Source: an uncultured Acidobacteriaceae bacterium
GTDB taxonomy: Bacteria; Acidobacteriota; Terriglobia; Terriglobales; Acidobacteriaceae
NCBI GenBank assembly: GCA_903828675.1
Contig: CAIKND010000029.1
Coordinates: forward strand, 1-64,000
Length of the DNA stretch: 64,000 nucleotides
Reading direction: 5' to 3'
Shown here in pieces: positions 17,653-58,690 of this stretch. The stretch's first letter is position 1. Each line of letters begins with the position of its first letter. A program made the position numbers and the translations under genes. The notes below the pieces were generated by a model that saw only the letters and a program-made list of their open reading frames with translations, was not told where the DNA came from and ran no database searches.

Positions 17653-20600
17653 ATGAAGTCCTTTTTGAACGGGAAGGTCCGGCTCGCGTTCGGGTTTGCC
17701 ATGCTGACCCTGCTGCTGATGGGGTCTTTCTCCTATCGCTGGATGGTCATTTCCGATGAAGGCAGCGGGTGGGTGCGGCATACCCACGCTGCGATTGAAA
17801 GCATCCAGGATTTGAGCGTGGCCATGGAGAGCGTCGAGTCCAGCAGCCGCGGTTTTGTGCTCACAGGCAAGGAAGCCGATCTCGACACCTATCGCGCCAG
17901 CATATTGAGGGCAGGCCAGGATCAGGCGACCATTCGTTTGCTGACAGCGGACAACCAAGCACAGCAACTCCACTTCCCCACCCTCGAGTCTCTGTCCGCC
18001 GAGAGAATCCAGCAGGCGGATACGACTATCGGCCTGCGCCGGAACAAGGGTTTGGCCGTGGCAGTAGCCGCCTTGGGCACTGGACCGGACGAGCAGCTTA
18101 AGAATGAGTTCCAAGCTGTCGTAGACAAGTTGCTCGTCGAGGAACAGCGCTTGCTGGCGCTTCGAATGGCAAACACGGATCGGGATCGGAGCCAGACCAA
18201 GATGATTCTGATCTTTGGAACCCTCTTGGGAGTCTTGATCTCCGGACTGGCGGCTTGGACCGCGGTACGCGACAGCACCAAACGCTCGATAGCCGAGGAA
18301 GCTCTGCAGCAGAGTGAAGAAAAATACCGGATGCTGCTGGACGGTGTGCAGGATTGTGCCATCTTCATGCTCGACCCGCGAGGCACGGTCGTCAGTTGGA
18401 GCGCAAGTGCGGAACATATCAAGGGGTTCACCGCCGCAGAGATCATCAATCGCAATTTCTCCCGCTTCTTCATCCCCGAAGATATCAAGAGGGGACGCCC
18501 GGAGGAGGTACTCCGGATTGCTGCCACCAGCGGACGACACGAAGAATTCGGCATGAGCCTGCGAAAAGACGGCACCGAATTCCTGGCCAGCGCCACTTAC
18601 ATTGCCTTGCGCGACCCGGCGGGTAACCTGCGCGGATTTTCAGAGATATGCCGCGACCTCACCGAGCACAAGGAGTCTGAGGCCAAGTATCGCGGGCTGC
18701 TCGAAGCCGCTCCGGATGGAATGGTGGTCGTAAACCAGGAGGGAGAAATCGTCCTGCTGAACGCCCAGGCCGAGAAACAGTTTGGCTACCGCCGCGACGA
18801 GTTGCTGGGCCAGAAGGTGACCAACATCATTCCAAAGGGATTTGCCGAGCGGCTGATCGCCGACGGAACCCGAACTGCGTCCGAGGCGCTGGCTCAGCAG
18901 ATCGGCACCGGAATCGAACTCATCGGGCGTCGAAAGAATGGAAGCAGCTTCCCGATCGAGATCATGCTCAGCCCGCTGGAAAGCACTGAAGGAATCCTGG
19001 TCACCGCCGCTATCCGGAATATCACCGTGCGCAAGGATGCGGAACAGCATCTGGCGCAAATGGAGGGCAGGTACCGCGGCCTTATGGAAGCCGCGCCGGA
19101 CGGAATGGTGGTGGTCAATCAGGAGGGGGAGATCGTCATCCTGAATGCCCAGGCAGAAAAGCAGTTCGGCTACCGCCGCGATGAACTGCTGGGCCAGAAA
19201 GTGACCAACATCATCCCCAAGGGATTTGCGGAGCGCCTGATCGCTGACGGAACCCGAACCGCGGCCGAAGCTCTTGCGCAGCAGATTGGCACCGGTATTG
19301 AACTCATCGGGCGGCGGAAGGACGGAAGCGGCTTTCCAATCGAGATCATGCTCAGCCCGCTGGAAAGTATTGAAGGAATCCTGGTTACTGCGGCTATCCG
19401 CGATATCACCGTGCGTAAGGATGCGGAGGAGCACCTGGCGCAAATGGAGGGCAGGTACCGCGGCCTCATGGAGGCTGCCCCGGACGGAATGGTTGTGGTG
19501 AATAAGGAGGGAGAAATCGTCCTGTTGAACGCCCGGGCGGAGACCCAGTTCGGGTATCGCCGCGATGAGCTATTGGGCCAAAAGGTGAAGAGCATCATTC
19601 CAGAAGGATTCGCGGAGCGGTTGATCGCCGATGCCCTTCGCACCACCGCAGAGGCTCTGGCGCAGCAGATCGGTACAGGCATTGAGCTCCACGGGCGGCG
19701 CAAGGACGGAACCGTATTTCCAATCGAGATCATGCTCAGCCCGCTGGAGAGCGCTGAAGGCATCCTGGTAACCGCTGCCATCCGCGACATCAGCGAGAGA
19801 AAGCAACTGGCGCGCCAACTCCACCAAAGCCAGAAGATGGAGGCCATTGGGCAGCTAACCGGCGGCATCGCTCACGATTTCAATAATCTGCTGGGTGTCA
19901 TCATCGGTAATCTGGATCTGCTTGACCGTCTGGTCGCGGACAACCCGGCCGCCGTCAAGCGTGTGCAGACCGCGCAAAAGGCGGCAACGCGAGGCGCGGA
20001 CATCACGCGTCGCCTGCTCGTCTTCTCAAGCAACGAGGAACTGAAACCTGCAGTAGTATTGCTGGGAGATTCGATTCACAACACCATCGAGTTGGCCGCG
20101 CGCGCACTCGGGGCCGAGATCAAGATCACCACACGTCTGGATGAATTTGTACCTCCCCTGTTCGTCGATCCCGCCGGACTTGAAAGCGCACTGCTCAATC
20201 TCGTGGTCAATGCGCGGGATGCAATGCCCAAGGGTGGTTCCATCATCATTTCCTCGCAGGTTCAGGAACTGGATGATAGCCATCCCGCGGTTCAGGCAGG
20301 CGACTTGAAGGTTGGTCGTTACGCCTGCGTGTCCGTGTCGGACACAGGGTCCGGCATGTCAAAAGAGACTATGGAGCGCGCCTTTGAGCCGTTCTTTACC
20401 ACCAAGCCGCGCAACAAGGGCACCGGTCTGGGACTGGCCATGGTCTACGGATTTGTAAAGCAGTCCGGCGGTACCGTGCGCGTTTACAGTGAGCTTGGTC
20501 ATGGAACGACCGTGTCGTTCTATCTGCCCCTTGTAGCGGATCTGCTGCACCCCGCTCCAGCGGATACTCCCAAGCGTCACGACGCAAAGATGGGCGGTAC

Positions 20601-26718: not shown

Positions 26719-27507
26719 CTAAGATGCCAGCTCGGGCGCGTTCTTCGACTCATTCACTTCTGACCCCTCCGAATCCTGAGAGCCATCCCCAGAATCCTCC
26801 TGGAACGTCTGGGCGTCGGCAAAGCGGTACCCCACGTACACATCCGTAAGCAGATACAAGGGATTCGATGGATCGTCTTCGATCTTCTTCCGCAACTGCC
26901 GGACGAACGTCCGCAGATACTCGACCTCCTCGCGGCAATCGGCCCCCCACACCGCCGTCAGCAGCTTGGCATAGGTAACCACCCGGCCCGCGCGGCTCAT
27001 CAGGCAGTGCAGTATGTCGAACTCCTTGCGGGTCAAATGGACAGCCTCGCCCCGTTTGGTCACATTGCGCTTCACCGGCTCCAGACGAATCTCTCCGATC
27101 TCGATGGGGGCATCTTCAGCGCGTGCGGGAGCGCGCACCCGCCGGACGGCCGCGCGAATACGTGCAATCAGCTCGCGGGTGCTGAATGGTTTGGTCACGT
27201 AGTCGTCCGCGCCCAGTTCCAGCGCCTCCACTTTGTCTTCTTCCTGGTCGCGAACCGTAAGCATCAGAATAGGCAGCCGCGGAGCAAAGGCGCGAATCCG
27301 GCGCAGCGTTTCGATGCCGCCAATGCCCGGCATATTCACATCGAGCAACACCACGTCATAGGCCGCTGCGCGCAACAGTTGCAGCGCCTCTTCTCCCCGC
27401 GAGGCCTCGGCCACCTGGAACCCCAGTTCCAGCAGCGGGGGGCGCAGCGCCCTGCGGATGGCTGATTCGTCGTCGACCACAAGAATGCGAATGGCAGGTT
27501 GGTTCAT
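26719..27507 (-). CDS. OmpR-family response regulator, KdpE-like
   Basis: A 262-residue two-component regulator. The receiver domain has Asp56 in VVLLDVNMPG and the conserved Lys in YVTKPFSTREL. The winged-helix DNA-binding domain (about 128-225) has HLTRKEFDILHCLMSRAGRVVTYAKLL and the typical TFVRQLRKKIEDDPSNPLYLLT. The best matches by style are KdpE-type regulators. The acidic, Ser-rich C-terminal tail of about 30 residues is extra. The start MNQPAIRI overlaps the kinase stop as ATGA, so the pair is coupled. No kdp transporter genes are in the window. Confidence 0.9.
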   Translation of the reverse strand: MNQPAIRILVVDDESAIRRALRPPLLELGFQVAEASRGEEALQLLRAAAYDVVLLDVNMPGIGGIETLRRIRAFAPRLPILMLTVRDQEEDKVEALELGADDYVTKPFSTRELIARIRAAVRRVRAPARAEDAPIEIGEIRLEPVKRNVTKRGEAVHLTRKEFDILHCLMSRAGRVVTYAKLLTAVWGADCREEVEYLRTFVRQLRKKIEDDPSNPLYLLTDVYVGYRFADAQTFQEDSGDGSQDSEGSEVNESKNAPELAS

Positions 27508-29009
27508 TGAGGACGTCCCTTCTGCGCTGAGTCCGGGATGGCCGCAAAGAATGTGGTTCCCTCGTGCTCCTCGCTTGTAACCCAAACATAGCCGCCATGG
27601 ATCAACGCCACTCTCTTGGCCACCGAAAGCCCGATGCCCGTGCCTGACGCCCGGTTGGAGAGTGTGGCGGAACGATAGTAGCGGTCAAAAATTCGTTCGC
27701 GGTCGGCCATCGGGATCACCGGCCCGTAGCTATGCACTGAAAAGATAACCTCTGTCTTGGCATGCACGGCGCGGATGGTGATGGCCGTTCCGTAAATGGA
27801 ATATTTACAGGCATTGTCGATGTATTGCGTCAGCAGCATGACGATCAACTGCCGATCGCAGCACAGCACCAGGTCATCGTCCTCCATGTCGACGATGACT
27901 TTCATGCTCGCCAAACGATCCTTGAGGCTGGCCAGTACTTCATCCAGCAGCGGAGCGATGCCTACTTGTGTGGCATGAATCTTCACCTCACCCGCATCCA
28001 GGCGGGCCGTGGTCAGCAGCCGCGTCGTCAATTCGCTCAGAACGCCTGCCTGCTCGTCGATGAGAGCAACCAGATCCGCCTGCCCCGCCGAGAGACGGCC
28101 CATCTCTCCCAGCCCGGTGCTGGCGGCGCGGATTGCCGTCAGCGGCGTCTTGTAGGCGTGCGCCAGGCTGTCCAGAACCGTGGACCGGAGCTGTTCGGTG
28201 CGGCGTTCAGTTTCGATGCGGCTCTCATTGGCAAAAGCCCGGTAGCGGTCGAAGGTGATTGCGATCAGCGAGGCAATGGCATTGTTCGTAAGCGCGCTGG
28301 TATCGCCCCGCACCACCAGGCTGCCCACGGGCACTGTACCCAAACGGACGACGCGGCGTCCTACGCCCGTATCCGGGTCGTCGTCTGAGGTTTCAAAGTA
28401 GTAGACGTTTTGCGCCATCTCTTGCGGGTCCACAGCCCAGTACCCCGCCTGGTAGACATTGTGAAGGTCGGCGTCGAAGACCGCCACCGCCTCCAGCGCA
28501 AAAATCTCGTGGACCAGTTCCGCCAACTGTGGTCCCGGTTCAACATGGAGGTTCATCTGCAAGGTGCGGCGTGTGAACTCATAAAGATCATGCATCTGTC
28601 CGCCCCGGGACTCGGCCTCCCTGGCGTTCCCGGTCACCCGCGCCGAAAGCCGGCTCACCGTAAGCGCAACCAGCACAAACGCCATCAGTGTTACCGAGTT
28701 GGCCGGATCGGAAGCAAGGTTCAGCTCAGACTTCCGTGAGTTCAGATAGCCATGCACCATCAGCGCCGAGAGCGACACAATCACCGCCTGCCAGAAGCCG
28801 CATAGCAGGGCGGTGGGCACAACGATGAGCAGATAGAGCAGCAGCGCAACCGGAAGCAGCCAGGCCGACCAGTGAGCAAAAGCCGCCACTAGAACGACAG
28901 CTACAATTCCGAGCGCACACTCCAGCGTGAACAAGAGCGCACGCAACCCGGAGCCGCGCGAAATCTTGGCGGCGAAGACAGAACGCACAGGAATATAGCT
29001 TCCAGACAA
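27504..29009 (-). CDS. Sensor histidine kinase, KdpD-like membrane core
   Basis: A 501-residue kinase. Four hydrophobic helices (about 22-125) resemble the DUF4118 membrane domain of KdpD. A GAF-like region follows (about 150-250), then the kinase core with His284 in DSLAHAYKTPLTAI and an N box around QYIDNACKYS. The large N-terminal KdpD and USP domains of true KdpD are missing. The first G box is unusual: HSYGPVIP (426-433) lacks the Asp normally found before the glycines. The second, GTGIGLS, is normal. It is the upstream gene of a coupled pair with the KdpE-like regulator. Confidence 0.88.
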   Translation of the reverse strand: MSGSYIPVRSVFAAKISRGSGLRALLFTLECALGIVAVVLVAAFAHWSAWLLPVALLLYLLIVVPTALLCGFWQAVIVSLSALMVHGYLNSRKSELNLASDPANSVTLMAFVLVALTVSRLSARVTGNAREAESRGGQMHDLYEFTRRTLQMNLHVEPGPQLAELVHEIFALEAVAVFDADLHNVYQAGYWAVDPQEMAQNVYYFETSDDDPDTGVGRRVVRLGTVPVGSLVVRGDTSALTNNAIASLIAITFDRYRAFANESRIETERRTEQLRSTVLDSLAHAYKTPLTAIRAASTGLGEMGRLSAGQADLVALIDEQAGVLSELTTRLLTTARLDAGEVKIHATQVGIAPLLDEVLASLKDRLASMKVIVDMEDDDLVLCCDRQLIVMLLTQYIDNACKYSIYGTAITIRAVHAKTEVIFSVHSYGPVIPMADRERIFDRYYRSATLSNRASGTGIGLSVAKRVALIHGGYVWVTSEEHEGTTFFAAIPDSAQKGRPQ

Positions 29010-29333
29010 CCTGTACCCACCTTCTCAATGCCACGGAACACGGAAAGGTCCGCTACTCAATTTGAAGAAGCCGCAAGAGAAACACCAAACAACTCAACCG
29101 TTCAATCGGTCAAGGTTTTGAGCAATTCGACATGGGACTTGTCTGTCCGGTCTCTTCGTTGATGACGACGAAAGCGCAAGAAAATTTTAGCAGGTTCCCC
29201 ATTTCCTTTTCCCTATTTCCTTTTTATGGAGCGTTGTGCTTGGTCCCGCCCATGGACGCTGGCGGCTCATTTACAGCATTGGCCGCCTGTGCTCTCCGCC
29301 TATGAAATCCACGTCAATGCTCCCAAATTCTTT
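29010..29333. other. Divergent intergenic region
   Basis: No gene visible. It holds the start region of the minus-strand kinase and leads into the regulatory part upstream of the porin. A pyrimidine-rich stretch with repeated CCCTATTTCC-like units lies around 29196-29226. Confidence 0.4.
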
Positions 29334-29363
29334 TCTCAATCCTCATAGGTTCTTTATGGGCCA
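29334..29363 (+). promoter_or_regulatory. 30-nt box shared with the glnA upstream region (porin copy)
   Basis: This block matches 34909-34938 upstream of glnA at 26 of 30 positions with no gaps; the shared core is CATAGGwTCTTTATGGG. Such conservation between two non-coding sites in front of different genes suggests a common promoter or activator site. Both copies have the same orientation relative to their genes. Confidence 0.6.
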
Positions 29364-29447
29364 TTTGCGTTACTAGTGTTAATCCGTATGGCCGTGACCG
29401 CCTCGGGGGCAGCACAACTACGGAGCAGCCAATTTGCAATCTGTACG

Positions 29448-29529
29448 GCCAGAAAGCTCGTGTAGCCGCAAGGCTTCACCTGTGCAGTTCGTAACAGACA
29501 GCGTGAAGCGGTGTTCCCCAATTTCTGGC
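29448..29529 (+). promoter_or_regulatory. Nested hairpin in porin leader
   Basis: GCCAGAAA-type outer arms (29448-29455 and 29522-29529) enclose GCTTCAC (29473-29479) paired with GTGAAGC (29503-29509). The structure ends about 50 bases before the porin start and would lie in a long 5' leader. I cannot match it to a known riboswitch class. Confidence 0.35.
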
Positions 29530-29581
29530 TGAATTCTTTGCTTGTCATACCAAAACAAATTTTCTTGGAGGAATAGTGCCG

Positions 29582-30778
29582 ATGAACATGAAACGGAATC
29601 GCATACTGCAATCGATGGCAGGAGCAGCACTTGGATTTGGCCTGCTTGCCGGCGCACAAACACCGGCTGCGCCTGCAGACGCGCCTGCACCGGCAGCGCA
29701 GGCTCCCGCAGCCGCACCAGCAGCTCCGGCCGCAGCACCCACCTGGAGCGTGGGCCCCATGGACATCAGCGGCTTCATCGACGGCTATTACAGCTATAAC
29801 TTCAACACCCCCTCCAACGCAGCCAATGGCCAGACCAATGATCTGTATAACTTCAACGACAAGACCGACCAGTTCAGCCTGAGCGCGGCTAAGTTGACCT
29901 TGAACCACGATCCCGATCCAATCGGCGCGCATGTTGACTTACTATACGGCCGCACGAATACCTTCGTGAATGCCTCCACCCCTAATTCGGGCGGCGAGGG
30001 TAACTACATCGAGCAGGCATTCCTCAGTTTGAAACCCACAAAGGCCAAGGGTTTCGAATTTGACTTCGGTAAGTTCGTCACCTCGGCAGGCGCCGAAGTT
30101 ATTGAATCCAAGGACAACTGGAACTACTCGCGCTCCCTGCTATTCGCATGGGCCATCCCCTACTTCCACTTTGGCGCACGCACTTCAATGCCCGTATCGA
30201 AAACCGAGACCATCGGCTTCCAGGTTGTGAACGGCTGGAACAACGTGACCAAGTTCAACGGTGGAGCCACGATCGGCCTCACCAGCGCGCTTGTAAAGCC
30301 GAAGTATTCCTGGTTTGTGAACTACTACGTTGGCCCTGAGAATCCCAACACCACCACCGGCTACCGCAACCTGATTGACAGTACGCTGCTGCTGACGCCA
30401 ACATCAAAGTTCAGCGCCTATATCAACTACGATTACGGCCAGAATCGCGATGCATTGAAGGCCCAGGAAGACACCAAGCTGAACCACTGGCAGGGCGTTG
30501 CATTCGCCGCTCGCGGTCAAATCTCGGGCAAGTCCGCATTGGCGGGACGCTACGAATATTTCAAAGATCCGAATGGCTTCGAGACCGGCACAGCGCAGCA
30601 CTTGCAAGAGTTTACGGGAACCTATGAATACAAGTGGGTAGAAGGCCTGCTGGCCAGGCTCGAATATCGACGCGACTGGTCTAACACTCCCTCATTCCAC
30701 AAGAACGATGGGGCATCTGTTAACGCGCAATCCACGATGACGGCAGGCTTCGTTGCCTTTTTTGGTCCCAAGCGCTAG
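29582..30778 (+). CDS. Outer membrane beta-barrel porin (BBP2/OmpL-like)
   Basis: A 398-residue exported protein. After a signal peptide comes a low-complexity Ala/Pro linker (about residues 25-55), then a barrel of many short amphipathic strands with repeated aromatic-ended segments (ISGFIDGYYSYNFNTP, LTLNHDPDPIGAHVDLLYGRT, LARLEYRRDWS, TAGFVAFFGPKR). This pattern fits the 'putative beta-barrel porin 2' family common in acidobacteria. GGAGG precedes ATG 29582 by ten bases; a GTG two codons earlier is also possible. The promoter-region box shared with glnA suggests that it imports a nitrogen source (inference). Confidence 0.85.
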   Translation: MNMKRNRILQSMAGAALGFGLLAGAQTPAAPADAPAPAAQAPAAAPAAPAAAPTWSVGPMDISGFIDGYYSYNFNTPSNAANGQTNDLYNFNDKTDQFSLSAAKLTLNHDPDPIGAHVDLLYGRTNTFVNASTPNSGGEGNYIEQAFLSLKPTKAKGFEFDFGKFVTSAGAEVIESKDNWNYSRSLLFAWAIPYFHFGARTSMPVSKTETIGFQVVNGWNNVTKFNGGATIGLTSALVKPKYSWFVNYYVGPENPNTTTGYRNLIDSTLLLTPTSKFSAYINYDYGQNRDALKAQEDTKLNHWQGVAFAARGQISGKSALAGRYEYFKDPNGFETGTAQHLQEFTGTYEYKWVEGLLARLEYRRDWSNTPSFHKNDGASVNAQSTMTAGFVAFFGPKR

Positions 30779-30795
30779 ATAACTCGTGGCTCCGT

Positions 30796-30818
30796 CCCGC
30801 CTGGCTGGTTCAGGCGGG
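30796..30818 (+). terminator. Hairpin downstream of porin
   Basis: CCCGCCTG pairs with CAGGCGGG around a seven-base loop 17 bases after the stop codon. There is no T-run, so termination is plausible but not certain. Confidence 0.5.
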
Positions 30819-31049
30819 GCCCTACCCCACACTCGCTGCCGGACTAACTGCCGGCGGCAAGGAAAGCTGAGCAACTCTTTTCAGTTTCCTCATTTCATCC
30901 TTATCAGCTGAGCTCTACGATCCAAATAACTCAAAGAGTTACTCCAGTCAGGCCCGAACAGGAATCCACTTACGGGTGAATCCCACGAAATTCCCGGAGG
31001 GAAACCGCCGGGAGCAGCCATACGAAAAACAATCTTCAGGAGAATGCTC

Positions 31050-32822
31050 ATGGCAGAACAAAAAGCACCTCAAATGCAGGCCACCCTGGGCCTTACCGGG
31101 CTGACCAGCAACGCAATGGCTCTCATTGCTCCCGGCGCCTTTCTGTGGCTCACCTTCTTCATCCAGGCCACGACAGGCACAACTGCTCCGGCCATGTGGC
31201 TAGGCATCTTCGGCGCCCTGCTGCTGTGTCTTGCAACGGCCGTTGCGTACGCTGAAATCTCCAAGCTCTATCCCGGTACCGGTTCAAGTTACTACTACGC
31301 TGAGCAGGCCATGCTTTCCAAGGAAGGGTCCTTCAAGTATGCCCGCATTGCAAAGTTCATCGTCGGGTGGGGCTCGCACCTTTACTACTGGGTCTATCCC
31401 GGCGTAATGGTCGCCACCACTGGCATCTTCATGGGTTATGTAGTGGGCTTCCTCTATCCGGGCATCATGAGCGGCTCGAACCCCGGACCTCTCTTCATGG
31501 CCCTCATCGCGATCGTCTTTGCGTTCTTCGTCGGCTGGATCGCATCCAAGGGCGCCGGCGCTTCCACGGCTGTCAACCTGGCCATCAACGTTATCCAGAT
31601 CTCGGCCTTGCTGGTCTTCAGCGTACTCGCCATCGGTTACCGCTCCAGCCATCCAGCTGGTTCACCGGCCTTCCAATATGACGGCCAGACACTGGCCACC
31701 TACGACTACCAGTTCGCCACTGCCAAGGATGGCTCGACCATCCGCGACGCTGCCGGCGCGCCGCTGCCCCTGCTCGATGCTTCAGGTAAAAAGGTTCCCT
31801 TCACCATCGACTACCCTGAGAAGGATGCAACCTCTGGCGCCTTCCTCGCCCACCCCACTGCGGCTTCTGTGATTTCTCCGCACAAGTTCAGTTATCTGTT
31901 CATCCAGGCCACCGTCGCCATCCTCATCCTGGTCGGCTTCGAATCGGTGACCTCGATGGGAGGCGAGGCCAAAAACCCAACCAAGCATATCCCCATCGCC
32001 GTCATCGCCTCGCTGCTAATCCAGGGCCTGGTCTGTTACCTGATTGAGTATTTCGCGGCCAACTACTTCCTCAACTCGGGGTACTCCATGGCCAACGCCG
32101 CCAGTTCCGCGGCCCCCATCGGCGATATGATGATCATCGTCGGAGACGGGCTGCTGGGCCACGGCAACGGCCACTACTTCATGCTCGCAGAGGCCTTCAC
32201 CGTGTTCCTGGCCCTCATCGGCACCACGCTTTCCTGCATGAACACCGGCGCTCGCGTCACCTATGCCATGGGCAAGGACGACGAAGCTCCTGAGCACTTC
32301 GGCATCCTTCACGCCGGATCGCTCAGCCCCCGCAAGGCCATCTGGACTCTGGCCACCATCTCCGCGGTGATCGGCGTTATCGCTGTCTCTCTGGTCTTCG
32401 GTGATGCTGCCGCGCCCAGCGATGCAGCCATTGCAGCCCTGCCCCACGGCCTCTTCTCCAGTTGGGGCTATCTCTCCCACGACCAGTTGGCTGCCTTGCC
32501 CAACTCGCTCTTGACCATCACGCTCACCTCCAACTTCGGTACCTTCATCCTCTACGCGCTCAGTTGCTTCCTGTGCATTGTGGCCTTCCACAAGCGCTCC
32601 GACTACAACGTAGTGTTGCACTTGATCATCCCCGGCTTCGGCCTGCTCGCCAACCTCACGTTGATGGCCTTCTACGTCATCAGCCCGGTCTTTGGCCTGG
32701 GAACCTTCAAGGAACCACTCTTGGCGCTAGGCATCTCGGCCGTCTGGGGCATCTACGGAGCCATTTACTTCCTCCGCTCCTCCAAGGCAAAGGGCAAGGC
32801 TATCTTGATCGAATCGAGATAA
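31050..32822 (+). CDS. APC-superfamily amino acid permease with large extracellular insert
   Basis: A 590-residue inner membrane transporter with about 12-13 helices. The first helix pair (LTSNAMALIAPGAFLWLTFF) resembles the APC core that binds the amino acid alpha groups. An unusual hydrophilic insert of about 85 residues (near 195-280, rich in TATYDYQFATAKDG-like sequence) sits between two helices. The substrate is not determinable; an amino acid or amine is likely. AGGAG lies seven bases before the chosen ATG; another ATG two codons earlier is too close to it. The 230-base leader contains small inverted repeats (AACTC/GAGTT at 30928-30940; TCCCGG/CCGGGA at 30992-31013). Confidence 0.87.
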   Translation: MAEQKAPQMQATLGLTGLTSNAMALIAPGAFLWLTFFIQATTGTTAPAMWLGIFGALLLCLATAVAYAEISKLYPGTGSSYYYAEQAMLSKEGSFKYARIAKFIVGWGSHLYYWVYPGVMVATTGIFMGYVVGFLYPGIMSGSNPGPLFMALIAIVFAFFVGWIASKGAGASTAVNLAINVIQISALLVFSVLAIGYRSSHPAGSPAFQYDGQTLATYDYQFATAKDGSTIRDAAGAPLPLLDASGKKVPFTIDYPEKDATSGAFLAHPTAASVISPHKFSYLFIQATVAILILVGFESVTSMGGEAKNPTKHIPIAVIASLLIQGLVCYLIEYFAANYFLNSGYSMANAASSAAPIGDMMIIVGDGLLGHGNGHYFMLAEAFTVFLALIGTTLSCMNTGARVTYAMGKDDEAPEHFGILHAGSLSPRKAIWTLATISAVIGVIAVSLVFGDAAAPSDAAIAALPHGLFSSWGYLSHDQLAALPNSLLTITLTSNFGTFILYALSCFLCIVAFHKRSDYNVVLHLIIPGFGLLANLTLMAFYVISPVFGLGTFKEPLLALGISAVWGIYGAIYFLRSSKAKGKAILIESR

Positions 32823-32854
32823 CCGCTTTAACCTGACCCGTAACTTAACCGCGA

Positions 32855-32919
32855 CTGCTGGGTGGAATCTCTCCTCAACCTCTTCCTTGAGGCGAGGCGC
32901 AGAGGACCACCCAGTAGCC
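32855..32919 (+). terminator. Branched hairpin after the permease
   Basis: Outer arms CTGCTGGGTGG and CCACCCAGTAG enclose a second hairpin CCTCAA/TTGAGG. The structure is followed by ATTTTG. It probably ends the permease transcript. Confidence 0.6.
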
Positions 32920-32970
32920 ATTTTGAAGCAGATGTTTCACAACCTATAAAATTGAATCTCTCCTGAGACA

Positions 32971-33804
32971 ATGGAGCAGATCAATGAGGCGGCGGCGCCC
33001 ATGTTGGATGTACAGTTCGGCCAGGCAAGCGATTTCGGCAAAGTCCGTACCAACAACGAAGACGCGATGGGAAGTTTCGTCCCTGCTTCACGCCACCAGG
33101 CCCGTTCCCACGGGTATCTCTTTGCCGTTGCGGACGGCGTCGGCGGCATGGATCTGGGCGAGGTGGCCTCCGCCACGGCCATATCTGTCATCACCGAGGA
33201 GTTCGCCAAGGCGCAGGCTGGCACCATGCTCATCAGCCTGCTGCCACGCCTGATTCAACACGCCAACGCAGCCGTTCATGACTGCACCCTGGCCTCTGAG
33301 TACCGCGGCAAAAAGATGGCAACCACCCTGGTAGCCTGTGCCCTCCGCTACGATCAGGCCATCGTCTCTCATGTGGGCGATTCCCGTTGCTATCTGGTCC
33401 GCGGTGGTCAGTGCAAGCAGGTCACGCAGGACCACACCTGGGTCAACGAACAGAGGAAACTTGGCTTGCTTACCGCCAGTGAGGCGGCTGAATCGGATTC
33501 ACGTCACATTCTGATTCGCTCGCTCGGGCCGCAGATGTTCGTCTCTCCCGACACCACTGCCCTCACTCTCCAGCCGGACGATGTCCTCGTTCTCTGCTCC
33601 GACGGGCTGCATGACTCCATGAGCAACTCCGCCATCGCCGAAATCGTGTCTCAAAAAAAGCCTATGGACGAGATAGCCCGCGAACTGGTAGCGCATGCTG
33701 TCGAAATCGACGGAGGCGATAACACCACGGCGCAGGTTGTCCGCATCCGCGCGGTCGAGCAGGTTGGCATGTATCGCGGACGTCCCTACCGCCTCCCTTC
33801 CTGA
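32971..33804 (+). CDS. PP2C-family Ser/Thr protein phosphatase
   Basis: A cytoplasmic metal-dependent phosphatase of 277 residues. All key PPM motifs are visible: RTNNEDA (motif 1), FAVADGVGGMDLGEVAS with the metal Asp, GDSRCYLV, TQDHTWVNE, LCSDGLHDSM and DGGDNTTAQV. It lies 100 bases upstream of a Ser/Thr kinase gene in the same direction, the usual pairing in which the phosphatase reverses the kinase. Its location next to glutamine synthetase may be chance. Confidence 0.93.
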   Translation: MEQINEAAAPMLDVQFGQASDFGKVRTNNEDAMGSFVPASRHQARSHGYLFAVADGVGGMDLGEVASATAISVITEEFAKAQAGTMLISLLPRLIQHANAAVHDCTLASEYRGKKMATTLVACALRYDQAIVSHVGDSRCYLVRGGQCKQVTQDHTWVNEQRKLGLLTASEAAESDSRHILIRSLGPQMFVSPDTTALTLQPDDVLVLCSDGLHDSMSNSAIAEIVSQKKPMDEIARELVAHAVEIDGGDNTTAQVVRIRAVEQVGMYRGRPYRLPS

Positions 33805-33905
33805 TTGCCTCTCCAACGAAATCCTGAAGACTTACGGAATCCTTACCGTTCTTGCGCGATTTCCCGATAGAGTAATAGAAGTCCTCTTCATGGAGTAGCC
33901 GCAAG

Positions 33906-34880
33906 ATGGGTTTTCTCGACAGCCTGGAAGCCGGTTCGCAGATTGATTCCTACCGGATCGACACACCCGTTGCCCGTAGCGGCATGGCCACGATTTTTCG
34001 CGCCACCGACCTTCGCGACAACCGCGTCGTAGCCCTCAAGATTCCCCATCCGGACATGGAAGCAGATCCAATTCTGTTCGACCGCTTCCAGCGTGAGTCA
34101 GGTATCGGAGAAAAGCTCAACCACCCCAAGGTCATGCGCGTCTTTGGCGGAGAGAGACGCTCGCGAATTTATATGGTCATGGAGTGGTGCGAAGGCCGCC
34201 TGCTGCGCCAGATCATGGATGATGGCAAAATTCCCCAGGTCCGCGCCATACGTATTGCCATCGGTATTCTTGACGCGCTTGACTACATCCACGCAAACGG
34301 CGTCGTGCACCGCGACCTGAAGCCGGAAAACATCATGGTAGATGCTGATGACAACATCAAGCTGATTGACTTCGGTATCGCCAGCGACTCTGCCGCCCGG
34401 CGCCTCACCTACGCCAACTTCACTGCCACTCTCGGCACTCCCAACTACATTTCACCGGAGCAGGTAAAAGGCAAGCGGGGTGACGGCCGCTCCGATATCT
34501 ATGCCGTGGGCGTACTCCTCTATGAGATGCTCTCCGGCAAGGTGCCCTTTACCGGTCCTTCGCCGATTGCCGTCATGAACGAGCGGCTGCTGAACCACCC
34601 CATGCCTCCCTCGGTCGCCGATCCTTCCATCTCGCCGCAGTTGCAGGAAGTTCTCTATCGCGCCCTCGAAAGAGACCCCAGGAATCGTTACCCGCGCGCA
34701 CATGATTTTGAACATGATCTCGAGCACCTGGACCAGGTAGGCGTAGAAGACCGCGATGAGCTGCGAAATTGGCAGAAGCGCAAATCACAACTGTCGCGCA
34801 AGATTTTCTATTATGCCGCTTTGGCGCTCATTCCCGTCGTGGTTTTGCTGCTGATGATGGCCGTTGCGCATCGCCGATAG
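33906..34880 (+). CDS. Membrane-anchored Ser/Thr protein kinase (Hanks type)
   Basis: A 324-residue kinase with the domain at about 16-280 and one C-terminal membrane helix (about 298-318, YYAALALIPVVVLLLMMAVA). Catalytic residues are present: Lys45 in VALKIP, HRDLKPEN with Asp137, and DFGIA with Asp155, then GTPNYISPEQ and DIYAVGVLLYEML. The glycine-rich loop is degenerate (VARSGMATIFRA), with only one of the usual glycines. There is no extracellular sensor domain beyond the final three or four residues, so it senses from the cytoplasmic side. The PP2C phosphatase lies directly upstream. Confidence 0.93.
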   Translation: MGFLDSLEAGSQIDSYRIDTPVARSGMATIFRATDLRDNRVVALKIPHPDMEADPILFDRFQRESGIGEKLNHPKVMRVFGGERRSRIYMVMEWCEGRLLRQIMDDGKIPQVRAIRIAIGILDALDYIHANGVVHRDLKPENIMVDADDNIKLIDFGIASDSAARRLTYANFTATLGTPNYISPEQVKGKRGDGRSDIYAVGVLLYEMLSGKVPFTGPSPIAVMNERLLNHPMPPSVADPSISPQLQEVLYRALERDPRNRYPRAHDFEHDLEHLDQVGVEDRDELRNWQKRKSQLSRKIFYYAALALIPVVVLLLMMAVAHRR

Positions 34881-34908
34881 CTGCGTCTCCTCGGGGCGAA
34901 TTTCCTCA

Positions 34909-34938
34909 TCACAATCTTCATAGGATCTTTATGGGTCA
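34909..34938 (+). promoter_or_regulatory. 30-nt box shared with the porin upstream region (glnA copy)
   Basis: This block matches the porin copy at 26 of 30 positions. It ends 53 bases before the glnA start, a suitable distance for a promoter or activator site. It does not match the sigma-54 -24/-12 pattern. Confidence 0.6.
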
Positions 34939-34991
34939 AGCCCTAGCATTCTTTTGAGTGCATAAGCGGTTTTCACCCCAAAAGGAGATCC

Positions 34992-36008
34992 ATGGCTAAG
35001 TACAAACTCGAATACATTTGGCTTGACGGCAAAAAGCCCGTTCCCGAGCTGCGCGGCAAAACTCTCATGAAGTCTTTTGAGAAGCCACCCACCCTTGCCG
35101 ACTTACCCAAGTGGGGTTTTGACGGCAGTTCCACTATGCAGGCCGAGGGCAGCAAGTCTGACTGCGTTCTGAAACCCGTGGCTCTCTATCCCGATGCAAG
35201 CCGCAAGGACGCTTATATCGTTCTCAGCGAAGTCATGCACCCCGATGGAACCCCGCATTCCACGAACATGCGCGCCACCATCGAAGACGATCCGGACCTA
35301 TGGGTAGGTCTTGAGCAGGAATACTTTCTTTATAAGGATGGACGTCCTCTCGGCTTCCCGAAAGACGGCCACCCTACAACTCCCCAGGGCCCTTACTACT
35401 GTGGCGTTGGCTATAAATACATGGGCAGCCTGGCCCGCACTATCGTCGAAGAGCATCTGGAACTATGTCTTGCTGCCGGCATCAATCATGAAGGCATCAA
35501 CGCTGAAGTCGCCAAAGGTCAATGGGAATTCCAGATCTTTGCCAAAGGCTCCGCTAAAGCCGCCGATGATGTCTGGACAGCCCGCTATTTGATGATGCGC
35601 CTCTGCGAGAAATACGAAGTGGATGTCGTTTTGCACTGCAAGCCAATCAAGGGCGACTGGAACGGTTCGGGCATGCACTGTAACTTCTCCACCAAGTACA
35701 TCCGCGAAGTAGGTGGCCAGCCATACTTTGAATCCCTCATGAAGGCGTTCGCCGACCATGTCCCCGAGCACATCGCTGTATACGGCCCGGACAACCATTT
35801 GCGCTTGACTGGTCTTCACGAAACGCAAGCCATTGACAAGTTCAGCTTTGGACTGTCAGATCGCGGCGCATCGATAAGGATGCCGGTAAACTTCGTCAAG
35901 GACGGATTCAAGGGCTATCTGGAAGATCGACGCCCGAACTCCGAAGGCGATCCTTACCAGATCATCTCTCGCGTCCTGAAAACAATCAATACTGTCGCAA
36001 AGCCATAA
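34992..36008 (+). CDS. glnA: Glutamine synthetase, type II (GSII)
   Basis: Makes glutamine from glutamate, ammonia and ATP. At 338 residues it is far shorter than the 470-residue bacterial type I enzyme and has the type II (eukaryote-like) motifs. These are WGFDGSSTMQAEGSKSD, GLEQEYFLYKDG, QWEFQI, GDWNGSGMHCNFST and GLSDRGASIRMP. Type II enzymes lack the adenylylation loop, so activity is probably controlled at transcription. AAAGGAG lies seven bases before the start. The enzyme should act with glutamate dehydrogenase or GOGAT in ammonia assimilation. Confidence 0.93.
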   Translation: MAKYKLEYIWLDGKKPVPELRGKTLMKSFEKPPTLADLPKWGFDGSSTMQAEGSKSDCVLKPVALYPDASRKDAYIVLSEVMHPDGTPHSTNMRATIEDDPDLWVGLEQEYFLYKDGRPLGFPKDGHPTTPQGPYYCGVGYKYMGSLARTIVEEHLELCLAAGINHEGINAEVAKGQWEFQIFAKGSAKAADDVWTARYLMMRLCEKYEVDVVLHCKPIKGDWNGSGMHCNFSTKYIREVGGQPYFESLMKAFADHVPEHIAVYGPDNHLRLTGLHETQAIDKFSFGLSDRGASIRMPVNFVKDGFKGYLEDRRPNSEGDPYQIISRVLKTINTVAKP

Positions 36009-46880: not shown

Positions 46881-46963
46881 TTGAATCCTGGCGGAATGGG
46901 TGGGACAGCACAACACTCAACCGCAGTGCCTCATCGTTCACTGTCCACTGTTTTTGCAGAAAT

Positions 46964-46992
46964 TTACCCTCCATAGGCGCACAATTGAAATA
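46964..46992 (+). repeat. 29-nt direct repeat, left copy, flanking the rhs region
   Basis: This segment matches 49430-49458 at 26 of 29 positions in the same orientation; the shared core is GGCGCACAAT followed by GAAATA. The two copies bracket the whole rhs cassette set. Confidence 0.75.
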
Positions 46993-47035
46993 TGAAGTCC
47001 AACAACCCGCCATTTCCCACACCACCCGTGCTCCA

Positions 47036-47160
47036 GGCGGGTGGCCCGGGTCCCGGGGAGTAGTGACTCCACCCACTGAAGTTGGGTGCCCCAGGTCCGG
47101 GGTCCCCGCGGACAGGTCTTCGTCCGTGGGGTGGAGGTGCCTCGCATTTGGGCACCGGGG
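47036..47160 (+). repeat. Hairpin repeat, copy 0 (before rhs cassette 1)
   Basis: Begins GGCGGGTGGCCCGGG. It contains two hairpins: CCCCGCGGAC/GTCCGTGGGG (47104-47131) and GGTGCC/GGCACC (47136-47156) with loop TCGCATTT. It ends immediately before ATATCGATACGATGCAAG, the start of rhs homology. It is longer than the other copies because of the extra first hairpin. Confidence 0.75.
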
Positions 47161-47171
47161 ATATCGATACG

Positions 47172-48086
47172 ATGCAAGTGCTGGCCTCAACTCGTACGCT
47201 GGATACGTCTACGACGTCGCCCCTCGTTTGTCTTCTCAGCACAACGTTCGCTCATCAGTCGATTTCTACCGGCAAAGAACGCGATTCCGAATCAGGCAAC
47301 GACTACTTCGAAGCGCGCTACTATGCGTCGAGCATGGGAAGATGGCTTTCACCTGATCCAGGAGGTATGGCTGTTGTTGATCTAGAGTTCCCGCAAACGC
47401 TGAATAGGTATGCGTATGTGAACAACAATCCGCTGAGCTTTACAGATCCATTTGGATTGGATTGTGCATATCTGAACAATGCAGGAAATGGAGTGGAAAG
47501 CGTTGATCAGCAAAGCAGCGCTGGCGAGTGCGGAAAGAGTGGTGGATATTGGGTAAATGGCGGTTTAACCAATATCAACATCAACGCGGATCAAGGTTCT
47601 GTTCAAATGACCGGGACGACGAATGGAACTGACCAGACGCACGCCTCATATCAAGATGCAAATGTTGTCGTTAGCGAGTGGAATAACACGATAGCCAATC
47701 CTGCGAATCACATTGCAATTAGCCTTCCTGGACAAAGGCCTGTAGGGCAAAATCCTCTGAGCGATTCGGATTTTATTTCTAATATTGCGCTCAATGGGTT
47801 TAAGTACAATGTTGTTCCTGGAACGATCAAGCCGCAGACCAATACAGGGAAGCTGCTGAAAGTTGCAGTTGTTCCGGTAACGGGCATGCAGGCCAAAATG
47901 ATCCAGGCATTTATTAATCAGTCCATGGCAAACCCTTCAAACTACTCTCTCAATACGCAACTTGGACTTGATTGCGCCACATGGGTTCAGCAATTACTCG
48001 GCAATGCAGGTGTGCAGACAGGTCCGATGCAGCCCATGCCTGATGATCTAATGAACCAACTCGGAAGCATGTATAAGGTCTACTAG
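47172..48086 (+). CDS. Orphan Rhs core fragment with C-terminal toxin-like domain (cassette 1)
   Basis: A 304-residue product lacking the long N-terminal YD-repeat shell of a full Rhs protein. The rhs core end is clear: TGKERDSESGNDYFEARYY (33-51) through DPFGLDC (92-98). The variable region after it (about 99-304) is unrelated to cassette 2. It contains His180 in ANHIAIS and Cys268 in GLDCATWVQQLL. The His-before-Cys order fits a circularly permuted papain/NlpC-like fold, as in some polymorphic toxins (inference). A small membrane protein gene follows eight bases later, as an immunity gene would. With no N-terminal part, the cassette may be silent and serve as a donor of new tips. Confidence 0.65.
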   Translation: MQVLASTRTLDTSTTSPLVCLLSTTFAHQSISTGKERDSESGNDYFEARYYASSMGRWLSPDPGGMAVVDLEFPQTLNRYAYVNNNPLSFTDPFGLDCAYLNNAGNGVESVDQQSSAGECGKSGGYWVNGGLTNININADQGSVQMTGTTNGTDQTHASYQDANVVVSEWNNTIANPANHIAISLPGQRPVGQNPLSDSDFISNIALNGFKYNVVPGTIKPQTNTGKLLKVAVVPVTGMQAKMIQAFINQSMANPSNYSLNTQLGLDCATWVQQLLGNAGVQTGPMQPMPDDLMNQLGSMYKVY

Positions 48087-48094
48087 GGGGAGCA

Positions 48095-48391
48095 ATGACA
48101 ATTAGCCGAAAAGTCTTTTTTGCAGGCTGTTGTGGGGGAGTGATTGGTTTATGCGTGGCAATCGTTCTTGGCTGGCTATCGTCGTATATGTCCTTATCCC
48201 CGATGTTGATCTTGCCCCTTTGGCCAACGTCCATATTCGGCATAGCCTTTAATGGCCCTTTGACATTTTCATGGACCAGCATCCTTGTAATCGTGTTGGT
48301 GTTTGGAGGAAACGCGCTACTGTATTCGATAGTTGTGGCATTATTAGCGCGATTGTTTTTTTCGTTTATGCCAACAAGTCATGAAGAGTAA
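48095..48391 (+). CDS. Candidate immunity protein, three-helix membrane protein
   Basis: A 98-residue, very hydrophobic protein with segments at about 7-29, 35-53 and 58-87 and little else. GGGGGAG lies just before the ATG, which is eight bases after the rhs cassette 1 stop. A gene directly behind an rhs C-terminal region usually protects against that toxin. A membrane immunity protein would suit a toxin acting on the envelope. I do not recognise the family. Its last codons run into hairpin copy A. Confidence 0.55.
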   Translation: MTISRKVFFAGCCGGVIGLCVAIVLGWLSSYMSLSPMLILPLWPTSIFGIAFNGPLTFSWTSILVIVLVFGGNALLYSIVVALLARLFFSFMPTSHEE

Positions 48392-48470
48392 CGGCGGGTG
48401 GCCCTGGTCTCAGTGACGGTTTCCAACCACGATGAGGGTGCCCCCGGTCCCTCGCTTTTGGGGACCGGGG
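48391..48470 (+). repeat. Hairpin repeat, copy A (before rhs cassette 2)
   Basis: Begins ACGGCGGGTGGCC and ends in a hairpin with CCCCGGTCCC (48442-48451), loop TCGCTTTT, and GGGACCGGGG (48461-48470). It is followed directly by the same ATATCGATACGATGCAAG as copy 0. Confidence 0.8.
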
Positions 48471-48481
48471 ATATCGATACG

Positions 48482-49111
48482 ATGCAAGAGCTGACTTCGA
48501 CTCGAACACCGGATGCATTTACGACACTGCCCCCCGTTTGTCTTTTCAGCGAAGCGCCCGGCCACCGATCTATTTTCACCGGCAAAGAACGAGACGCAGA
48601 ATCAGGCAACGACTATTTTGAAGCTCGCTACTACGGTTCATCGATGGGGAGATTCTTGTCACCCGACCCGTCAATGTTGGAGTATGCTGATCCAACCAAT
48701 CCGCAGAGCCTAAATCTCTACAGCTACGTGCTCAACAACCCACTTGGCTTCATCGATCCAGACGGCATGGAATGCGTGTGGGATGATGGCAGCTTCGACT
48801 CCGCCACAGACAAGCAAACTGGAAGCAGCAAGTCGTGTGGTAAAGCCGGGGGTACATGGATTGACCCGAAGGCTTTTTCCACACTGAACGCCGGCGATTG
48901 GAGTGACAAGGCGAATGCCAATATCGCGGGTATTGGCGGGTGGCCCGGGTGCCGGGGGAGTAAAGTGAGTTCTCCCACAAACGATGGGTGCCCCAGGTGC
49001 CTCGCATTTGGGCACCTGGGAGAGCATGCAGGCCGGTTCTTCTCGACATCTCTAGTGATTCGTTGTACGGCGGGTAGCCACGGTCTCGATGACCTGTCCC
49101 AACCCAAATGA
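48482..49111 (+). pseudogene. Rhs core fragment with truncated C-terminal region (cassette 2)
   Basis: The rhs core (TGKERDAESGNDYFEARYYG through NNPLGFIDPDGMEC) is about 80% similar to cassette 1, and the DNA match extends upstream through the hairpin repeat. The new C-terminal region starts CVWDDGSFDSATDKQTGSSK, a frequent Rhs tip beginning, but after about 55 residues it runs into hairpin copy B. The remaining open frame is translated repeat, not toxin. No immunity gene follows. The cassette is therefore a decayed or partial copy. Confidence 0.7.
48935..49020 (+). repeat. Hairpin repeat, copy B (interrupts cassette 2)
   Basis: Begins GGCGGGTGGCCCGGG and ends in the hairpin CCCAGGTGCC (48992-49001), loop TCGCATTT, GGCACCTGGG (49011-49020). 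The stem sequence differs from copies A and C, but pairing is perfect. Confidence 0.8.
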
Positions 49112-49146
49112 GGGTGCCACCGGTCCCTCGCTTTTGGGGACCGGTG
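49069..49146 (+). repeat. Hairpin repeat, copy C (before rhs relic)
   Basis: Begins GGCGGGTAGCC and ends in the hairpin CACCGGTCCC (49118-49127), loop TCGCTTTT, GGGACCGGTG (49137-49146). Compared with copy A, the outer C-G pair is replaced by A-T on both arms, preserving the stem. Confidence 0.8.
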
Positions 49147-49216
49147 ATGACACTGCGACGATGGGTTTGTGACAATGGCGCGCGTCGCCATTTGTTCAAC
49201 ACTCTCGTTTTTTCCA

Positions 49217-49260
49217 CGATCCCGTTCCACCTGCAAAGAACAAGATGCGGAGCCCTCTAT
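49217..49260 (+). pseudogene. Relic of a third rhs core
   Basis: TTCCACCTGCAAAGAACAAG and the following ATGCGGA resemble the rhs core segment TTTTCACCGGCAAAGAACGA with ACGCAGA in cassette 2, with substitutions and no usable reading frame. It lies about 75 bases after hairpin copy C, near the spacing seen in cassettes 1 and 2. Confidence 0.5.
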
Positions 49261-49278
49261 TTCAAATCCCGCCAGTTC

Positions 49279-49311
49279 GGCGTGGCCCGGGTCTCGATTC
49301 TGAGACCCGGG
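49279..49311 (+). repeat. Hairpin repeat, copy D (short)
   Basis: Begins GGCGTGGCC and contains CCCGGGTCTC (49286-49295) paired perfectly with GAGACCCGGG (49302-49311) around GATTCT. Only the hairpin part of the repeat is present. Confidence 0.65.
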
Positions 49312-49429
49312 ATTCGCTCTCAGAGCCGTTTGTAGTCATGCGCATCACCGCACCCGGAAATGACAAAAAGCGGTCTATTTTCTCATCACTGAATCGAAAA
49401 GACTTACCCGCCACTTTCACTGCATATAA

Positions 49430-58295: not shown

Positions 58296-58690
58296 AGCAT
58301 CAAGCTCCGCCCTGGGAAGTTCCAAAGAACCGGCCGTAGAAGTAAATATCCTCCGCCAGGGCCGGTGACTTTATGGTTGGTGGCCCCTCAAAGGGGCCTT
58401 GCACTGCGCCTTATGGCGGAAGCCTCGTAATAGATCCGGCAACTCAATACCGTACGGGCGGGAAGAAGATGCCATTGTTTCCTTGCCGGATCAATATCGC
58501 CGTCAGATTTATCCCCGCGATGTCTGGCGTCGGCAATTCTTTCCGGACCGGTACTTCGAACTGTCGCCCTTCGCCCGCGCCGCAGGCGCACTGCATGTTA
58601 GCCCAGCGCTTAAGCGCTGGGTATAGCTGAGTTACACTCGACATTGGTCGGCGCAACCTTCAATCCACGCCGGCGTAATACCCTGGAGCC
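58296..58690. other. Non-coding gap inside mod locus, rich in palindromes
   Basis: Holds several hairpins: CCGGCC/GGCCGG (58331-58367), GGCCCCT/AGGGGCC (58383-58400), CGCC-TTAT-GGCG, and the 20-bp palindrome described separately. I could not match it to the molybdenum-cofactor riboswitch. It has the character of intergenic repeat insertion. Confidence 0.5.
58602..58621. repeat. 20-bp perfect palindrome
   Basis: CCCAGCGCTTAAGCGCTGGG is a perfect palindrome, of the REP-like kind common in acidobacterial intergenic DNA. It lies 70 bases before modB. Confidence 0.8.

Follow-up and report, generated by a model that had tools for sequence, protein, structure and literature searches.

What is the function of a nearly identical 30-nt box found ahead of a porin gene and a glutamine synthetase (GS) gene in the DNA of an uncultured Acidobacteriaceae bacterium (assembly GCA_903828675.1, contig CAIKND010000029.1), and which protein binds it? 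The whole stretch that was analysed, positions 1 to 64,000 of the forward strand, is called the window below. The two copies, 29334–29363 and 34909–34938, share 26 of 30 positions in a gap-free alignment on the same strand, exactly as stated in a preliminary description of the locus. Both are intergenic, ahead of genes for a BBP2 porin (29576–30778) and a GlnII-type GS (34992–36008), and the gene content described between them, a permease and a PP2C/kinase pair, was recovered with Pfam. Comparison of the window with itself produced eight offsets with a 30-mer pair of at least 26 identities, and four Markov-simulated windows produced none. In this acidobacterial genus and some relatives, the box is likely to serve as the operator of a regulon for nitrogen assimilation, bound by the adjacent response regulator and acting in activation.

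There is a third copy, overlooked in the preliminary description, at 30886–30904, ahead of the permease gene; it matches the refined pattern TCYTCAYNNNWTCYTTAT exactly. With up to two mismatches allowed, TCYTCAYNNNWTCYTTAT has four matches in the window, exact ones at 29340, 30887 and 34915 and one elsewhere with two mismatches; shuffled windows contain 0.65 matches on average, and none of 100 reached four. The element is a direct repeat of two units 11 bp apart, WTCYTYAY-NNN-WTCYTTAT(G). The core proposed earlier, CATAGGwTCTTTATGGG, is not the conserved unit, as the AGG between the units and the GG after them vary.

Box 1 in the porin promoter (29339–29357, plus strand) reads ATCCTCAT AGGT TCTTTAT, two units with 11-bp spacing, is exact to WTCYTYAYNNNWTCYTTAT and scores 28.8 with the positional weight matrix (PWM) described below. 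Box 2 in the permease promoter (30886–30904, plus strand) is TTCCTCAT TTCA TCCTTAT, with 0 mismatches and a score of 28.2, and box 3 in the GS promoter (34914–34932, plus strand) is ATCTTCAT AGGA TCTTTAT, scoring 29.4. Since three exact sites are found in the window, the porin, the permease and the GS each have a box, and the PP2C/kinase pair has none. A weaker additional 11-bp unit (TTCTTTTCTCA, 29328–29338, plus strand) may lie upstream of the porin box, where an overlapping PWM match at 29328–29348 scores 12.6; more than two units are present at some other promoters, e.g. at positions 477–519 of locus L051. Tandem half-sites with an 11-bp period, a feature of OmpR/PhoB-type operators, are directly visible in the matrix, columns 0–7 of which show the same unit as columns 11–18.

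As a search pattern the earlier core was too specific and was rejected: with up to two mismatches it yielded 19 sites in 150 genomes of the family versus 36 for the reversed control. The four matches it has in genomes G008 and G083 nevertheless all turned out to belong to the regulon. In the window's own genome, at the same tolerance, it finds just the two sites already described, so the wider regulon is invisible with it.

A related permease was found at 310 loci; the 80 best of these, 1.32 Mb in total, served for the comparative analysis, and the gene order of the window is widely kept in them. Separate expectation-maximization motif searches upstream of the porin (25 sequences), the permease (63), a divergent 474-aa GS denoted gsX (24) and the GlnII-type GS, gsII (13), yielded the same repeat each time, with log-likelihoods of 287–814 against 78–114 for shuffled input. 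Upstream of the divergent histidine kinase gene the reverse complement of the repeat was recovered, this intergenic region being common to the kinase and the porin. The searches upstream of PP2C, the Ser/Thr kinase and the canonical GSI, gsI (4 sequences only), gave other motifs and did not recover the box.

The PWM was built from 84 distinct sites, with a site ahead of 25/25 porins, 44/63 permeases, 15/24 gsX and 12/13 gsII genes of near relatives; the gsX set includes one artefact (distance 11247, the gene being at a contig start), and with this disregarded the count is 14/24. In the 1.32 Mb, on which the matrix was partly trained, matches scoring at least 18 number 155 on the permease strand, three on the other strand and one in the reversed sequence. 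Of the 158 strong matches, 120 are upstream of a cluster gene and 38 elsewhere, many of the latter where the porin is unannotated. None of them falls inside an annotated cluster gene, in agreement with the earlier placement of the box outside coding genes.

Genome-wide searches extend the set of targets. With TCYTYAYNNNNTCYTTAT, the window's own genome has six exact sites. Three are the window boxes, one is situated 215 nt upstream of the amtB gene that follows a PII gene, and one 85 nt upstream of a gene for an OAR/TonB-receptor-like protein (own L140/L179). The remaining one, C64:12651, overlaps the start of a glycosyltransferase gene and may be due to chance. Across the genus, 59 genomes were searched: 56 of them contain the strict pattern, at 152 sites in all, versus two sites for the reversed pattern. 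The 145 sites that were classified comprise 144 of the 152 from other genomes and one of the six own sites; the other seven are five own sites, inspected separately, and two sites of G083 that were left unclassified, one of which is a porin site.

Labelled by the nearest recognised gene, the 145 sites precede gsX (21), amtB (20), porin (18), permease (15), gsII (12), gsI (10) and PP2C (2), and 47 are unclassified. The two sites labelled PP2C read as permease-type. The unclassified sites were assigned by reading the translations: 10 belong to porins, 13 to OAR/TonB-receptor-like genes, 10 are lookalikes from G154, and 14 are others, among them sites ahead of a HemD-GAF-ANTAR protein, a purine permease and an amino-acid permease (8/14 were put to Pfam). 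The totals after this reading are 43 sites for GS, 28 for porin, 20 for amtB and 17 for permease. Thus the expectation of the preliminary description, that a nitrogen-responsive site would stand ahead of amtB or other nitrogen genes, holds both in the window's genome, at its own amtB, and in the genus. As amtB was not used in building the matrix, it provides a fair test: a box is present 189–215 nt upstream of amtB in four of five genus genomes, one of these being weak (18.3). In addition, G058, outside the sample of 30 amtB loci, has a box between the kinase gene and amtB, which are transcribed apart.

Several observations concern particular classes of sites. Two OAR-like proteins were confirmed by Pfam as a CarboxypepD_reg domain with an outer-membrane barrel. 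Genes of this class behind a box are, apart from own L140/L179, those of L225, L229, L250, L258, L266, L267, L294, L295, L309, L328, L330, L334 and L338, and their cargo is possibly nitrogen-rich substrates. The HemD-GAF-ANTAR protein behind the box of L296 has a domain mix that we take to be reminiscent of nitrate-assimilation antiterminators. The ten scattered, near-identical sites of G154 (L211–L220) continue with ACTGTGC and belong to another dispersed repeat, which resembles the box; they are still counted within the 145 and the 152.

The position of the box relative to the promoter is well defined. Exactly 11 nt downstream of the box, a TANNNT hexamer begins in 10/13 gsII, 16/21 gsX, 9/10 gsI, 13/18 permease and 7/21 amtB promoters; the next commonest spacing in these five classes is 10 nt in gsX (four cases), and elsewhere no spacing occurs more than three times. 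In the OAR-like class the hexamer is found at 12 nt in 7/13 promoters. The window follows the spacing of its classes, with TACGAT (30916–30921, plus strand) 11 nt after box 2 and TAGCAT (34944–34949, plus strand) 11 nt after box 3 as −10-like elements. As TANNNT starts 11 nt downstream in five classes, the box is situated in the −35 region, at the place of a class II activator; this is the geometry of such a site and would not in itself prove activation. The fixed spacing of TANNNT favours sigma-70. An operator next to the −10 element without a separate −35, another feature of the OmpR/PhoB type, is seen in the same five classes and not in the porin class.

The type of GS behind this promoter is variable. 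Downstream of the Ser/Thr kinase gene there is GlnII, gsX or GSI, sometimes two or three GS genes in a row. The first of them has a box in 27 of 30 loci (gsII 12/13, gsX 14/15, gsI 1/2), and the later ones have none (0/9). Since the first GS carries the box whatever its type, the promoter is preserved and the type of enzyme downstream of it varies. Tandem arrays of two or three GS genes of different types (GlnII, GSI, 474-aa gsX), with only the first preceded by a box, are found in L049, L092, L039, L044, L045, L053 and L083.

The best candidate for the protein that binds the box is encoded next to the porin gene. An OmpR/PhoB-family, KdpE-like response regulator (26719–27585, minus strand; the true start is probably an ATG near 27507) has the Pfam domains Response_reg and Trans_reg_C, and RegX3 and KdpE (PDB 4kny, E 2.2e-46) are among its closest relatives of known structure. 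The gene for a sensor histidine kinase with DUF4118, HisKA and HATPase domains (27504–29009, minus strand) is divergent from the porin gene; DUF4118 is a KdpD domain. The phosphorylation motifs of the regulator, VVDDE, LLDVNMPG, LTVRD and TKPF, are intact. Its recognition helix, YLRTF[VIM]RQLRKKIE, is near-invariant, being found in 50 of 59 loci, where the regulators are 45–87% identical to the window's regulator.

The box and the kinase/regulator genes are frequently found together, and homologues of the window kinase occur near boxes. All 39 of the 80 loci that have a histidine kinase nearby have a match of at least 19.5 upstream of the permease, with the matrix in part trained on these. The kinase is present in 54 of the 59 genus genomes (match at 1e-60), and in 31 of the 54 a strict box is situated 226–501 nt upstream of it, always on the opposite strand. 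The gene divergent from the kinase in these 31 genomes varies, being a porin, gsX, gsI or a permease. In G192 the kinase and the strict box are both missing. Outside the genus, 10 of 30 strict sites are within 600 nt of a kinase homologue. We considered 20 regions around kinase homologues, nine picked with a strict site near and 11 picked for a kinase without one (for G133 and G084, two of the 11, the proximity of amtB was a further reason). A PWM match of at least 21 is present in every one of these 11 regions from other genera; there are 13 matches of at least 18 in their 88 kb and none in the reversed sequence. In some of them the box is 1–2.5 kb from the kinase, ahead of gsX or another gene. 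Neighbours in the kinase-homologue regions include amtB, PII, porin and gsX.

These observations are consistent with the following mechanism. The histidine kinase (27504–29009) would phosphorylate the response regulator (26719–27585), the most likely binder. The DNA-binding domains of two regulators would bind head to tail, one to each WTCYTYAY unit at a distance of one helical turn, in the place of a −35 element, and the bound regulators would recruit RNA polymerase to the sigma-70-type −10 starting 11 nt further on. The targets would be the porin as the entry through the outer membrane, the amino-acid permease, amtB and GS, and in some genomes the TonB-receptor-like proteins. What the computations show directly is the repeat itself, which genes lie behind it, how it is spaced and how often it occurs together with the genes of the kinase and the regulator. 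Nitrogen control is supported by the gene content. The adjacent regulator probably binds the box; this binding, the activation and nitrogen shortage as the signal are inferences.

A number of results weigh against this reading. The porin class has no TANNNT at 11 nt (0/29) and has it at 16 nt in 11/29; the consensus of the 29 porin promoters at the 11-nt place is TTTGCgTTACT, and this suggests, tentatively, an extended −10 element (TGC-GTTACT) at 29369–29374 (plus strand), 11 nt after box 1. Further, 24 permease loci have at least 2.6 kb of upstream sequence and no adjacent kinase/regulator, and 12 of them have a box. Of the 12 without a box, 11 are distant permeases (62–68% identity), and for six of the 12 with a box the kinase appears to be on another contig of the same genome. 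There is no strict box within 1 kb of 23 of the 54 kinases. The genomes G170, G195, G200 and G202, 65–97% complete, have one to three strict boxes and no kinase match, and G160 and G177 have the kinase and no strict box. Some expected targets are devoid of the box: amtB of G083, all 25 amtB loci of other genera within the 30 best amtB loci, the own gsX (contig 213), which is the second GS of the window's genome, and GlnII of G029, on a contig without the permease, where the best score in 600 nt upstream is −1.5. Outside the genus, the strict pattern has 30 sites in 145 genomes against 13 for the reversed pattern, about twice the control. Finally, the DUF4118/KdpD-like kinase by itself points to potassium and not to nitrogen.

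Part of this evidence would fit the same nitrogen regulon with the box bound by another OmpR/PhoB-family regulator encoded elsewhere, the neighbouring pair being a target or a passenger. The boxes at the 12 permease loci without an adjacent pair and in the four genomes without a kinase match favour this, and OmpR-family regulators are numerous, several having sites with 11-bp spacing. However, the occurrence of a strict box next to the kinase, with changing partners, in 31 of 54 genomes, the box in every one of the 11 regions picked for the kinase, the near-invariant recognition helix and the joint absence of kinase and strict box in G192 make this option unlikely, if still credible. The element being a chance or mobile repeat without function has next to no probability: lookalikes do exist, as the ten scattered G154 sites with their other downstream sequence demonstrate, but 152 sites versus two, the recurrent position ahead of the same genes and the fixed −10 spacing in five classes are at odds with it, and it is already contradicted by the de novo, PWM, genus-wide and spacing results.

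Two further alternatives were considered. PHO boxes directly precede the −10 element at promoters that have no −35 of their own. The box might be such a site of a phosphate regulator that touches nitrogen genes too: the regulator scores 185.2 bits with the PhoB-type model TIGR02154, PHO boxes are described in passages of PMC4415409 as two 11-nt repeats with CTGTCAT units, that is, like here, two 7-nt units 4 nt apart, and Streptomyces PhoP represses glnA, glnII and amtB according to passages of PMC10704036 and PMC4415409. We consider it very unlikely, as the score is below the model cut-off of 296.2, the units here are TCYTYAT and not CTGTCAT, the targets are nitrogen genes, and none of the 145 sites stands ahead of a recognisable phosphate gene (14 are outside the named classes, with eight of these put to Pfam). 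In the one genome covered, the window's own, the pstS locus (L420) has no PWM match above 5, which does not support the PHO-box reading. A potassium or osmotic KdpDE regulon, including GS, amtB and the amino-acid permease since glutamate balances potassium, is scarcely probable. The kinase is KdpD-like with DUF4118, KdpE is a close solved relative of the regulator, and the KdpE half-sites TTTATA-N5-TTTACA, binding to which needs R193 and R200 according to passages of PMC3264566, are direct repeats with the same 11-bp period. The YLR...QLR of the recognition helix aligns with YLR...HLR of KdpE, so both arginines are present (the R193/R200 numbering being deduced from the spacing). However, the units are TCYTYAY here, the scores with the NCBIfam equivalog models are far below the cut-offs (116.7 of 1123 bits for KdpD and 177.7 of 325 for KdpE), an ammonium transporter and GS are among the targets in place of a potassium pump, and no kdpFABC gene showed up next to any of the sites, although no search aimed at kdpFABC was made.

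The nitrogen operator bound by the adjacent regulator, which remains our preferred reading, may be compared with the known nitrogen systems. The targets of NtrBC and sigma-54 are glnA/glnII and amtB-glnK, with distant operator sites and a −24/−12 promoter; the target classes are alike, whereas the direct repeat described here adjoins a TANNNT −10 element. A close parallel is the actinomycete GlnR, in passages of PMC10704036 an orphan regulator of the OmpR family that controls glnA, glnII and amtB from sites of two 11-nt repeats. The likeness covers the OmpR-type DNA-binding domain, the operator of two 11-nt repeats and the presence of GS and amtB among the targets (43 and 20 of 145 sites, by position). 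Unlike GlnR, the regulator is adjoined by a kinase in the window and in many relatives, its phosphorylation motifs are intact where the GlnR pocket is degenerate, and its box is WTCYTYAY-NNN-WTCYTTAT and not gTnAc-n6-GaAAc (PMC10704036). Hence the system works like actinobacterial GlnR, yet by the tests run it is not GlnR, PhoB or KdpE.

A bolder version of this reading would make the KdpDE-like pair the main nitrogen regulator of the Acidobacteriaceae, apart from NtrBC and GlnR, with the DUF4118 sensor reading external ammonium directly and GS being exchanged (GlnII, GSI or the divergent third type) under a conserved promoter. The ammonium and potassium ions are almost equal in radius, so that ammonium sensing could plausibly have begun from a sensor of the potassium type; nevertheless, we hold this full version to be improbable.

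The other genes of the locus are as follows. The BBP2 (OmpL-like) porin (29576–30778, plus strand; PF07642, E 3e-81) and the APC-family amino-acid permease (31044–32822, plus strand; PF13520) are assigned to the regulon by the boxes ahead of 25/25 and 44/63 near relatives, sets which also served for matrix training. The third member in the window, the eukaryote-like GlnII-type GS (34992–36008, plus strand), scores 366 bits with NF041605, below the 500-bit cut-off, and has GSII matches in PDB. The genes for the PP2C phosphatase (32971–33804, plus strand) and the Ser/Thr kinase (33906–34880, plus strand), both identified with Pfam, have no box of their own, and the de novo searches upstream of 58 and 50 relatives, respectively, yielded other motifs. 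In most of the 80 loci this pair (32971–34880) likewise follows the permease without sharing the box, and it may act on the neighbouring proteins.

An Rfam search of the window revealed no RNA family near the boxes, so there is no known riboswitch at them. Leaders of about 200 nt separate the box from the start codon at the porin (29375–29575) and at amtB (L142, 1520–1735), the one in the window having no Rfam match. Elsewhere in the window, an Acido-Lenti-1 RNA is found at 58576–58621 on the minus strand (45.8 bits, gathering score 37), and the regions 18737–19505 and 46962–49428 contain more direct-repeat pairs with 26–30 identities of 30 (e.g. 19051/19435, 47147/48457 and 48432/49108).

Acidobacteria are abundant across soils (PMC5900883). 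In two passages of this survey of their genomes, amtB is described as forming an operon with glnK, and the terms two-component and NtrC are absent. No account of the control of nitrogen assimilation in Acidobacteria was found in the open-access literature searched, subscription journals being mostly outside its coverage. The findings suggest a form of nitrogen control that has so far gone undescribed in these bacteria. The place of the outer-membrane porin and the TonB-like receptors among the targets suggests that they serve nitrogen uptake, as the preliminary description had proposed for the porin. The operator, its likely two-component regulator and its targets can now be named and are testable in cultured relatives such as Occallatibacter, and the GS genes provide a case in which one type of enzyme replaces another behind a promoter that is retained.

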